In this document: one piece after another, positions 45,557 through 49,024 of the stretch
How the letters are laid out: each line of letters opens with the position of its first letter
Position numbering within the stretch: the stretch's first letter is position 1
Source of the DNA: Bacteroidota bacterium
GTDB taxonomy: Bacteria; Bacteroidota; Bacteroidia; B-17B0; Aurantibacillaceae
NCBI GenBank assembly: GCA_018267475.1
Contig: JAFDYI010000020.1
Location: 1 to 58,123, forward strand
Direction: 5' to 3'
Length of the DNA stretch: 58,123 nucleotides
The notes under the pieces: model-generated
Told to the model about the DNA's origin: nothing
Databases searched by the model: none
What the model saw: only the letters and a program-made list of their open reading frames with translations
Position numbers and translations under genes: made by a program

Positions 45557-46324
45557 TTAAAGGGAGCGCATAAACTGCAATTCTTTAAAAGAAAAATTTT
45601 TTATTTCGTTTTGTGCGGTGCGCAGAATGAGTTGTCCGCTTTCTTCTACCGCCTGTATTTGAGCCTCAAAAACTCCTTCTTTGCTTTGGTACGGAGCCAT
45701 TTCATGAAGCAAATACAAACAGCTGGTGTACGAACGGTTTATATGTTCCAAACGGTTTTGTTTTAGTAGCAAATACCAAGCCTCAAACTGCTTGCAAAAC
45801 ACCGAAAGTACCTGGCGCACATCAAACTCTTTTTGGGCAAGTAAAGCCAACGAAGTGGTGGGCTTGGGCAATTCATGAAAATGTATTTGGTTTACATTAA
45901 TACCCACCCCTACAACAGCACTTTGCAAAAACTGCTCGCGGCATATATTTTCAATTAAAATACCGCATATTTTTTGTTGATTTGCCAATAGGTCATTAGG
46001 CCACTTTATTTTTATGTCATAACGGCTTGCAGGCAAAAAGTGTGTCAGTGTTTCAAAAACAGCCAAAGAGGCTATTTTACTGATATAAAATTGTTTTTCT
46101 ATGGGAAGAAAAAGGGGGCTTAGAACCAGTGAAAACGTAAGGTTTTTGCCCCTTTCGGCTTGCCAGGTATGGCCCATTTGCCCGCGTCCGGCCTTTTGGT
46201 TTTGGGTGAAGATAAGGGTTCCCTCGGCTACAGCCTTCTCTTTTAACAAATGAATGGCATAAGTATTGGTAGAGTCTGTTTCGGATAACTCTATAATATG
46301 TTGCCCAATAAAAAGAGTATTCAT
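45557..46324 (-). CDS. birA: biotin-[acetyl-CoA-carboxylase] ligase
   Basis: Attaches biotin to the carrier protein Lys. A 255-residue class I ligase without the N-terminal HTH repressor domain of E. coli BirA. Motifs: ELSETDSTNTYAIHLL, QKAGRGQMGHTWQ (near 44-55), the biotinyl-AMP loop, LTFSLVLSP, KIKWPNDLL (near 105), VGVGINVNQ. ATG 46324 is used because the -7 element ends 7 bases upstream. It is divergent from rsfS, an arrangement I recall as conserved in Bacteroidota (birA / rsfS-ftsH-...-cdsA). Confidence 0.93.
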   Translation of the reverse strand: MNTLFIGQHIIELSETDSTNTYAIHLLKEKAVAEGTLIFTQNQKAGRGQMGHTWQAERGKNLTFSLVLSPLFLPIEKQFYISKIASLAVFETLTHFLPASRYDIKIKWPNDLLANQQKICGILIENICREQFLQSAVVGVGINVNQIHFHELPKPTTSLALLAQKEFDVRQVLSVFCKQFEAWYLLLKQNRLEHINRSYTSCLYLLHEMAPYQSKEGVFEAQIQAVEESGQLILRTAQNEIKNFSFKELQFMRSL

Positions 46325-46330
46325 AATGGG

Positions 46331-46350
46331 CAAAAATAATGTTATCTTTG
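46331..46350. promoter_or_regulatory. back-to-back promoters of birA and rsfS
   Basis: TATTTTTG on the minus strand (46338-46331, 7 bases before birA ATG) and TATCTTTG on the plus strand (46343-46350, 31 bases before rsfS ATG) are separated by only 4 bases. Each upstream half must lie in the other's transcribed region, so simultaneous occupancy by two polymerases looks impossible. Confidence 0.6.
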
Positions 46351-46380
46351 CAAGCTACACGCAAGTGTAAAAAAATAATT

Positions 46381-46551
46381 ATGGCAAAAAAAGCAGTAAA
46401 AAAAACCAGCAGTAAAAAAGCGAGCGCAAAAAAGGTGCCTGCTAAAAAGGCAGTCGCAAAAAAAACAGTCGCAAAAAAGGCACCTGCTAAAAAAAAGCCA
46501 ACAAAAAAAACAGTCGCAAAAAAGCCGGCAGCTAAGCCCCTGGCCAAAAAC
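46381..46551 (+). repeat. degenerate tetrapeptide-coding repeat (AKKx)
   Basis: Runs of GCNAAAAAA-type codons recur about a dozen times, with two longer near-copies (around 46421-46455 and 46469-46497). The repeat can expand or contract in 12-base steps without frame change. Confidence 0.75.
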
Positions 46552-46884
46552 CCGTTATTAACCAGCATTATCAACGGTTTAGAAGAGAAAAAAGCAAAAA
46601 ACATCACTGTTTTAAATTTAACCAAAATAGCCAACTGCTCTTTTGATTATTTTGTGATAGCGGATGCCGAATCAAATACCCACGTAGATTCTATAGCCAA
46701 CTCGGTAGAAGAGGTAGTGCGCAAGCAGATAGGAGAAAAACCGTATCACACGGAAGGTTGGGAAAACTCCGAATGGATTTTATTGGATTACGTAAACATT
46801 ATAGTACACGTATTTCAGCAACAAACCCGCAGTTTTTACCATCTAGAAGATCTATGGGCCGATGCCGAAATAACACGCCTTTAA
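46381..46884 (+). CDS. rsfS: ribosome silencing factor with histone H1-like AKK tail
   Basis: A 167-residue protein. Residues about 58-167 are a full RsfS/Iojap domain (LNLTKIANCSFDYFVIADAE, THVDSIANSVEEVVRK, GWENSEWILLDYVNIIVHVF, YHLEDLWADA), which binds uL14 and blocks 50S-30S joining in starvation. Residues 1-57 are an added tail made of AKKx repeats (AKKVPAKKAVAKKTVAKKAP and similar), like histone H1 or AlgP C-terminal domains, very basic and probably disordered. Such a tail should bind nucleic acid, perhaps rRNA or DNA. ATG 46381 is the start because upstream codons overlap the promoter. It is followed by ftsH after 25 bases. Confidence 0.9.
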   Translation: MAKKAVKKTSSKKASAKKVPAKKAVAKKTVAKKAPAKKKPTKKTVAKKPAAKPLAKNPLLTSIINGLEEKKAKNITVLNLTKIANCSFDYFVIADAESNTHVDSIANSVEEVVRKQIGEKPYHTEGWENSEWILLDYVNIIVHVFQQQTRSFYHLEDLWADAEITRL

Positions 46885-46909: not shown

Positions 46910-49024
46910 ATGAGCAACGACGAAAATAAAGAACCCCAAACTACCGAAAATAATCAGCAACCCTCGCCCAAGCCGCAAGCAGATAACACATCAAATCCTT
47001 CTTCAAAAAAAGAAAGAGATCGAATAGAGTTTGAAAAAATGCGCGACCGTATGCGCAAACTTAATTCGTCTAACAACAAAGGCGGTGGCGGTTTTAATTT
47101 TTATTGGATATATGCTATTATTGTAGTGGTTTTAATTACCCTTACCTATTACGATGGTTCGCCTTTTGGTGGTGGCAACACCCGCCATATTACCCAAGTT
47201 GATTTTGAACAAAAAATGTTAAGCCGTGGCGATGTGCAAGCCATCATTATCGTAAACGGAAAAAAAGCCGAAGTACGTGTAAACCCCGATAGCCTTAGCC
47301 TTTTTAGATACTATCAAAACAACAAACCTATTATTGCAAACCCTAAACAGGTGCAAGGGCCTCAATTTGTTATTAATAATATCGATGCCTTTAGTTTTGT
47401 AATGAGAGTAAAAGAAGTACAAGAAAAAGCCGGCATACCCGATAACAAAATAGTAACGCCCACCCGCGAAGACCGCGCCGAACTAAGCGATTATTTAGGA
47501 TGGTTGCTGCCTATATTAATTATGGGGGCCATTTTTCTCGTTACTATGCGCCGTATGGGAGGCGGCGGAGGCGGCGGAGGCCAGATATTTAATATAGGAA
47601 GAAGCAAAGCCGTATTGTTTGATAAAGATATTAACGTAAACGTAACTTTTAATGATGTAGCGGGCTTAGAAGGCGCTAAAGTAGAGATAAAAGAAATTGT
47701 AGATTTTTTAAAAAACCCGAAAAAATACACCGATTTAGGAGCTAAAATACCTAAAGGAGCTTTATTGGTAGGCCCCCCGGGCACCGGAAAAACCTTACTG
47801 GCAAAAGCCGTAGCCGGCGAAGCCAAAGTGCCCTTCTTTTCTTTATCGGGTTCCGACTTTGTAGAAATGTTTGTGGGCGTAGGAGCCTCGCGGGTGCGCG
47901 ATTTGTTTCGCCAAGCCAAAGAAAAATCACCTTGCATTATTTTTATAGACGAGATTGATGCTATTGGACGTGCACGTGGAAAAAATGCCAACTTTGGCGG
48001 AAACGACGAGCGCGAAAACACCTTAAATCAATTACTAACCGAAATGGACGGCTTTGGTTCTAACAGCGGTGTCATTATGCTGGCCGCCACCAACCGCGCC
48101 GACATTTTGGATAAGGCCTTATTGCGCGCCGGGCGCTTTGACCGACAAATTTTTGTGGATTTGCCCGATGCCAACGAACGGAAAGCCATTTTTCAAGTAC
48201 ACTTGCGCCCTCTAAAATTACACAACGAAGTAGATATCGATTTCTTAGCCAAGCAAACCCCCGGCTTTAGTGGAGCCGATATTGCCAACATCTGCAACGA
48301 AGCGGCTCTTATTGCCGCACGTAATAATAAAAAAGCAGTAGAAAAACAGGATTTTTTAGACGCCGTAGATAGGATTATTGCCGGCTTAGAAAACAAAAAC
48401 AAAATTATTACCCCACACGAAAAGCGCACCATTGCTTTTCATGAAGCAGGCCATGCTACGGTGAGCTGGATGTTAGAGCACGCCTCGCCTTTGGTAAAAG
48501 TAACTATTGTGCCCCGCGGTCGCTCGTTGGGTGCCGCTTGGTACTTACCCGAAGAACGCCAAATAAACACCATAGACCAAATTTTTGACGAGATGTGTGC
48601 CGCTTTAGGTGGGCGCGCAGCCGAAGAAATTGTTTTTGGGCGTGTGAGTACCGGCGCCCTTAGTGATTTAGAAAAAATTTCAAAACAAGCCTACGCATCA
48701 GTAGTGTATTACGGGTTGAATGATAAAATAGGAAATGTAAGCTATTACGATAGCAGCGGGCAATCAGAATATCAATTTGGCAAACCATATAGCGAACATA
48801 CAGCACAGGTAATTGACGAAGAGATTAAAAAAATGATTGATAAAGCCTATGTAAAAACCAAAGAAATTTTACTTGCCAATAGAGAAAAATTAACTCAACT
48901 GGCCGAAAAACTATTGGAAAAAGAGGTGATTTTTAGAGATGATTTGGAGCTTATTTTTGGTAAACGCCCTTTTGATAAAGAAGAAACAAAAAACGAAAAC
49001 ACAGTAACAAACACGCTTCAGTAG
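46910..49024 (+). CDS. ftsH: ATP-dependent zinc metalloprotease FtsH
   Basis: Membrane AAA+ protease, 704 residues. The cytosolic N-terminus is unusually long (about 60 polar residues) before TM1 ([18 protein letters not shown]); TM2 is near 197-212 ([14 protein letters not shown]), followed by a poly-Gly linker. Walker A GPPGTGKT (near 287), Walker [15 protein letters not shown] region [19 protein letters not shown], zinc site HEAGH (near 510). It degrades misfolded or short-lived membrane proteins. Downstream in many Bacteroidota a LUD-domain gene follows; here cdsA comes directly after 33 bases. Confidence 0.97.

Follow-up and report, generated by a model that had tools for sequence, protein, structure and literature searches.

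Comparison across genomes shows that the ribosome silencing factor RsfS, in the bacterial order analysed here (sampled through this one family only), has a low-complexity polycationic tail at its N-terminus, the charge of which is conserved while length and exact sequence vary. A starvation factor of wide distribution, RsfS turns off ribosomes that stand idle, and most work on it concerns a bare domain of about 110 residues. In the window, that is, the whole stretch of 58,123 nucleotides that was analysed, the rsfS gene occupies positions 46381-46884 (+) and encodes 167 amino acids, an assignment on which sequence, reading frame and Pfam agree; a search of the genome found this one RsfS gene. 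As far as sequence comparison can tell, its tail is a charge-conserved, repeat-expanded polycation and not a domain fusion, because the charge is kept across relatives, the class has short basic N-termini and similar tails occur on other proteins. The word "fused", used in a preliminary description of this DNA, is misleading in this respect: the tail looks like a short basic N-terminus, of a kind common in the class, that has grown by repeat expansion, and the same genome holds at least eight other such tails.

A polycationic tail ahead of an ordinary RsfS domain

The tail comprises residues 1-56 (MAKKAVKKTSSKKASAKKVPAKKAVAKKTVAKKAPAKKKPTKKTVAKKPAAKPLAK; positions 46381-46548, +), which read as AKKxx pentads with 23 lysines, no aspartate, glutamate or arginine, a net charge of +23 and eight occurrences of KKxxxKK. 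Tandem-repeat DNA with a 15/45-nt period runs inside it from 46399 to 46524 (+), as detected both by Tandem Repeats Finder, which listed 15, 30 and 45 nt among its periods, and by autocorrelation, which peaked at lags of 45, 15, 60 and 30 nt. The tail is more than mere A-rich DNA, since none of 5000 dinucleotide-preserving shuffles reached its 15-nt autocorrelation or its KK count; the same holds for the spacing of its lysine doublets. The open frame by itself is unremarkable, with 16% of the shuffles staying open. The preliminary description had placed a histone H1-like tail of 57 residues, built of AKKx repeats, at 46381-46551. The start and the K/A-rich N-terminus were borne out, and the composition is indeed H1-like and also Hc2-like (the match to PF07382 falls below its cut-off), but the repeat unit has five residues (15 nt) and not four, and the end had taken in the first codon of the core. 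The tail is probably disordered. Its composition is the stronger reason for thinking so; the AlphaFold model, which gives the tail no secondary structure and block pLDDT values of 61-74, is weak evidence on this point because the query alone has the tail in the input alignment.

The core that follows the tail (46549-46884, +) is a complete, ordinary RsfS domain. PF02410 matches residues 62-159 of the protein (E=3.9e-31; 107.6 bits against a curated cut-off of 21.6) and is covered from profile position 2 to 98 of 98, and the predicted core has a pLDDT mostly above 90. The best PDB match of the AlphaFold model in Foldseek was 6sj6_9 (E=2.7e-10; TM 0.85 by target length), which is the S. aureus RsfS on the 50S subunit. 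The uL14-contact residues of that protein, Glu70, Asp81 and Tyr98, are kept as E125, D136 and Y153, and its rRNA-anchor positions Q49/R53/K56 correspond to D/N/E. A scan of named genomes yielded relatives at 33-53% identity only. On one side of rsfS lies a gene for an FtsH-type AAA protease (46910-49024, +; an ORF with a Walker A motif, named by eye) and on the other a divergent biotin-protein ligase (BirA-like) gene (45557-46324, -; an ORF named by eye, with KWPND and GRGQMGHTW motifs); by a crude motif search that sets a lower bound, each adjoins rsfS in at least 18 of 34 family loci. An antisense open frame of 185 codons (46077-46634, -) overlaps the tail and mirrors its repeat, with no sign of being a gene.

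Probable translation of the tail

The tail is very probably translated, to judge indirectly from its start site and its pattern of substitution. A -7 promoter element, TATCTTTG, at 46343-46350 (+) fits TAHHTTTG, the -7 element of Bacteroidota (PMC6847099), and ends 30 nt ahead of the ATG at 46381; its position places the inferred transcript start at about 46355 and thus implies a leader of 26 nt. Another in-frame ATG, at 46339, lies upstream of that inferred transcript start. In Flavobacterium johnsoniae, an A at positions -3 and -6 of the start is a positive determinant (PMC6847099), and the ATG at 46381 has A at both. The promoter block and the ATTATG context are also present in five other members of the genus that were read.

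The preliminary description had allowed for a start downstream of the repeats. An annotation artefact of this kind, in which translation would begin within or downstream of the repeats, leaving the tail unmade, is scarcely credible. A single in-frame GTG within the tail would speak for it, but this is the only later in-frame start in the RsfS of the window, a protein begun there would still keep 38 tail residues, and no internal start codon removes the whole tail. Moreover, 15 of 49 relatives have no in-frame ATG, GTG or TTG between the ATG of the tail and the core. The conserved promoter and start context also argue against such an artefact, as does a third-position bias: summed over six close pairs (L026/L028, L035/L038, L093/L094, L103/L104, L096/L100 and L008/L016), substitutions in the tail number 54, 46 and 169 at codon positions 1, 2 and 3. 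Free nucleotide alignments of these pairs contain no gaps, or gaps of 15 or 6 nt; some gaps in more distant pairs have lengths not divisible by three, which is to be expected of repeats that cannot be aligned reliably.

The tail in the order, the class and the phylum

The preliminary description had also considered that the tail might be absent in all relatives, and what was found is an RsfS frame of at least 160 aa, and hence of tailed size, in 65/65 genomes of the order at 90% completeness or above. The 49 tails that were read have net charges of +15 to +53 and measure 42-198 aa (median 78), lengths that are slightly generous because the script chose an ATG upstream of the likely start in a few of them, the window's included. 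Amino acid change is fast, affecting 12 of 78 codons in the tail versus 2 of 112 in the core between L026 and L028, and the fast-changing tails of close relatives retain the frame, the lysine doublets and the charge. That repetitive DNA allows length variation, as had been proposed, agrees with what is seen between species, where length shifts in-frame and sometimes by 15 nt. Between tail and core, most genera of the family carry a motif like KExxxREANxIANSEKKK...KRPKK (loci L009, L013, L017, L034, L090-L105 and others). This motif, which might bind a partner, is missing from genera g1 (the window's), g3, g4 and g10.

A survey of RsfS N-termini, of the kind suggested in the preliminary description, found the tails order-wide and, elsewhere in the class, mostly short basic N-termini together with several long tails. 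Most other families of the class have an N-terminus of 10-20 residues that is often lysine-rich; long N-terminal tails are found also in families f11, f12, f14, f21 and f36, with single cases in f23 and f29. No long AKK N-terminal tail was present at the RsfS loci that were read outside the class but within the phylum. At the C-terminus, a lysine-rich tail is carried by RsfS in 6/6 cases of family f16 (L019, L114, L123, L135, L141 and L142), in one f10 genome (G154; L154) and in the MAG behind L077. An N-terminal and a C-terminal tail are not one element retained in its original position, which makes separate origins the simplest reading of these sequences. A count of tail origins from the tree of 116 RsfS cores was dropped: the tree needs at least 11 state changes and, built from 112 columns, is too poorly resolved for gains to be distinguished from losses.

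Tails on other proteins of the same genome

Searches by codon pattern, which make the list a lower bound, detected similar tails on at least eight other proteins of the window's genome. These are the ribosomal proteins bL21 and bTHX, adenylate kinase, topoisomerase I, a SWIB protein, a START-like protein, a DksA/TraR-type zinc-finger protein and a protein like uroporphyrinogen-III synthase (HEM4); six of the eight are named by Pfam, and the names topoisomerase I and HEM4-like were assigned by eye. In this family the AKKxxAKK codon pattern is about nine times as frequent as its reversed control; in the other families of the class the ratio is about five. The tails of bL21 and adenylate kinase are nearly family-wide and absent in genus g3. 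Because g3 lacks these two and keeps the RsfS tail (3/3 genomes read), the latter is the more persistent.

Several of these loci have features of their own. Adenylate kinase (G000:C37:58622-59101, +, and downstream; loci L233-L262) carries roughly 110 aa of AKK tail at its C-terminus, and its K-rich tails are long across the family, genus g3 excepted; in many relatives a conserved segment (like FIEAEIELTQLENDIEHLDLTVNDFE) stands between enzyme and tail, and the window's genus is without it. The AKK tail of bL21 (G000:C34:57533-57835, -, L229; loci L203-L232) is C-terminal and occurs in most of the family, and certain other families of the class have a bare bL21. In bTHX, a small protein of the 30S subunit (G000:C13:34472-34507, -, L086), the AKK tail stands at the end, and the HEM4-like protein (G000:C21:57911-58005, -, L192) has an N-terminal one, which is odd for a metabolic enzyme. 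A stand-alone AKK-repeat frame of 37 residues with an ATG start (G000:C3:63259-63351, -, L052/L053), for which no Pfam match was found, is a possible small nucleic-acid-binding peptide.

Possible roles of the tail

The likeliest role, proposed here tentatively, is that of an electrostatic anchor of RsfS to the 50S subunit or its rRNA. The tail would have grown from a short basic N-terminus of the MAKKKK type through expansion of a 15-nt repeat and, being disordered, would act as a non-specific anchor; it would hold RsfS near 50S rRNA while the folded domain, seated on uL14/bL19/H95, blocks joining of the 30S subunit, and the on-rate and residence time of RsfS would be raised. Were charge and reach all that counts, the tail would be free to sit at either end and to drift in sequence. 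In S. aureus, RsfS contacts uL14, and the cavity where it does so also takes in bL19 and 23S H95 (PMC7125091), so that a +23 tail starting beside the uL14 site would have rRNA within its reach. Several observations seem to favour anchoring: the tail-sized frames of all 65 genomes and the strong positive charge of all 49 tails read, the recurrence of long tails in other families at either terminus, the rapid change of amino acids with frame and lysines kept, the retained uL14-contact residues, the outlasting of the bL21 and adenylate kinase tails in g3, and the ribosomal nature of the tailed bL21 and bTHX. Against it stands the fact that most RsfS proteins of the class work without a long tail. 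Since adenylate kinase and the HEM4-like protein are tailed as well, a tail alone does not imply ribosome binding. Tails also do not track core charge, and the idea that they compensate an acidic core was dropped because core net charge fails to distinguish tailed from tail-less families (p=0.59).

Tails on such unrelated proteins, the ninefold excess of AKK pentads, the repeat-sized indels and the rapid sequence change could also be produced by weakly selected slippage, whereby A-rich 15-nt repeats expand easily, a charged disordered extension is near harmless and selection keeps the frame only. This explanation deserves more weight than the other alternatives but is on the whole improbable, given that it has to accommodate a tail-less RsfS in none of the 65 genomes, a strongly positive charge in 49/49 tails, basic tails at the opposite end in other lineages and the retention of the RsfS tail in a genus that lost two others. 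Other polyanions could also be the target. As RsfS is a starvation factor, its tail might in starvation bind polyphosphate or RNA-rich condensates and bring RsfS together with other tailed proteins. In E. coli, polyphosphate is bound by disordered, lysine-rich regions of proteins related to translation (PMC12345225), and the lysine-repeat protein AlgP is found on polyphosphate granules, the spacing of which needs its repeat domain (PMC9239181); the case is one of analogy only, and we regard it as rather unlikely. Slightly less probable still is a nucleoid tether, in which DNA binding by the H1-like tail would hold RsfS, or the silenced 50S subunit, close to the chromosome. The composition like that of histone H1 and chlamydial Hc2 (PF07382, 33.9 bits, under the curated Pfam cut-off of 40), the tailed topoisomerase I and SWIB protein, and the binding of KPAA peptides to DNA in vitro (PMC9239181) point that way, but ribosomal proteins bL21 and bTHX are tailed too and there is no known reason why RsfS should work at DNA.

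A much more speculative extension, to which little probability is given, is that the AKK tails of RsfS, adenylate kinase, bL21, bTHX, topoisomerase I, the DksA/TraR-type protein and others together make up a charge code shared across the lineage, through which the polyanions of starvation (polyphosphate, idle rRNA) would gather these proteins into a common assembly, shutting down translation and speeding recovery. Whichever role applies, a lineage that is always tailed (+15 to +53), set against families with the tail at the opposite end, amounts to a natural experiment that bears on whether ribosome silencing is tuned by charge alone, and the presence of one tail type on unrelated proteins of one genome makes the role of bacterial disordered lysine tails directly testable.

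Comparison with known systems

RsfS itself is already known, and so are the lysine-repeat tails of Hc2, AlgP/PhaF and eukaryotic snoRNPs; no description of such tails on RsfS was found in the open-access literature, most subscription papers being outside this scope. The window protein shares its folded domain and its uL14-contact residues with the RsfS / Iojap / MALSU1 family (PF02410; S. aureus 6SJ6, E. coli 7BL2-7BL5, human MALSU1 5OOL). Characterised bacterial RsfS proteins are mostly bare domains of 105-139 aa, and a long AKK tail was present in none of those matched; PDB chain 28ye_G (152 aa) has an N-terminal extension that is shorter (about 38 aa) and less lysine-rich than the window tail. 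With chlamydial Hc2 (PF07382) the tail shares a K/A repeat composition (E=4.4e-8). This likeness is compositional, and the window tail sits instead on an RsfS domain. AlgP/PhaF of Pseudomonas likewise combine a folded domain with a long disordered K/A repeat tail of variable repeat number (PMC9239181). However, their tails are C-terminal, belong to other proteins and consist of proline-containing KPAA repeats, whereas the tail described here is made of AKKxx units at the N-terminus of RsfS and its sequence contains no KPAA run. The KKE/D domains of eukaryotic snoRNPs are similarly lysine-rich disordered tails found at either terminus of several ribosome-biogenesis factors, but they are of mixed charge (K with E/D) and act in the eukaryotic nucleolus, so that they offer a functional analogy only (PMC11528048).
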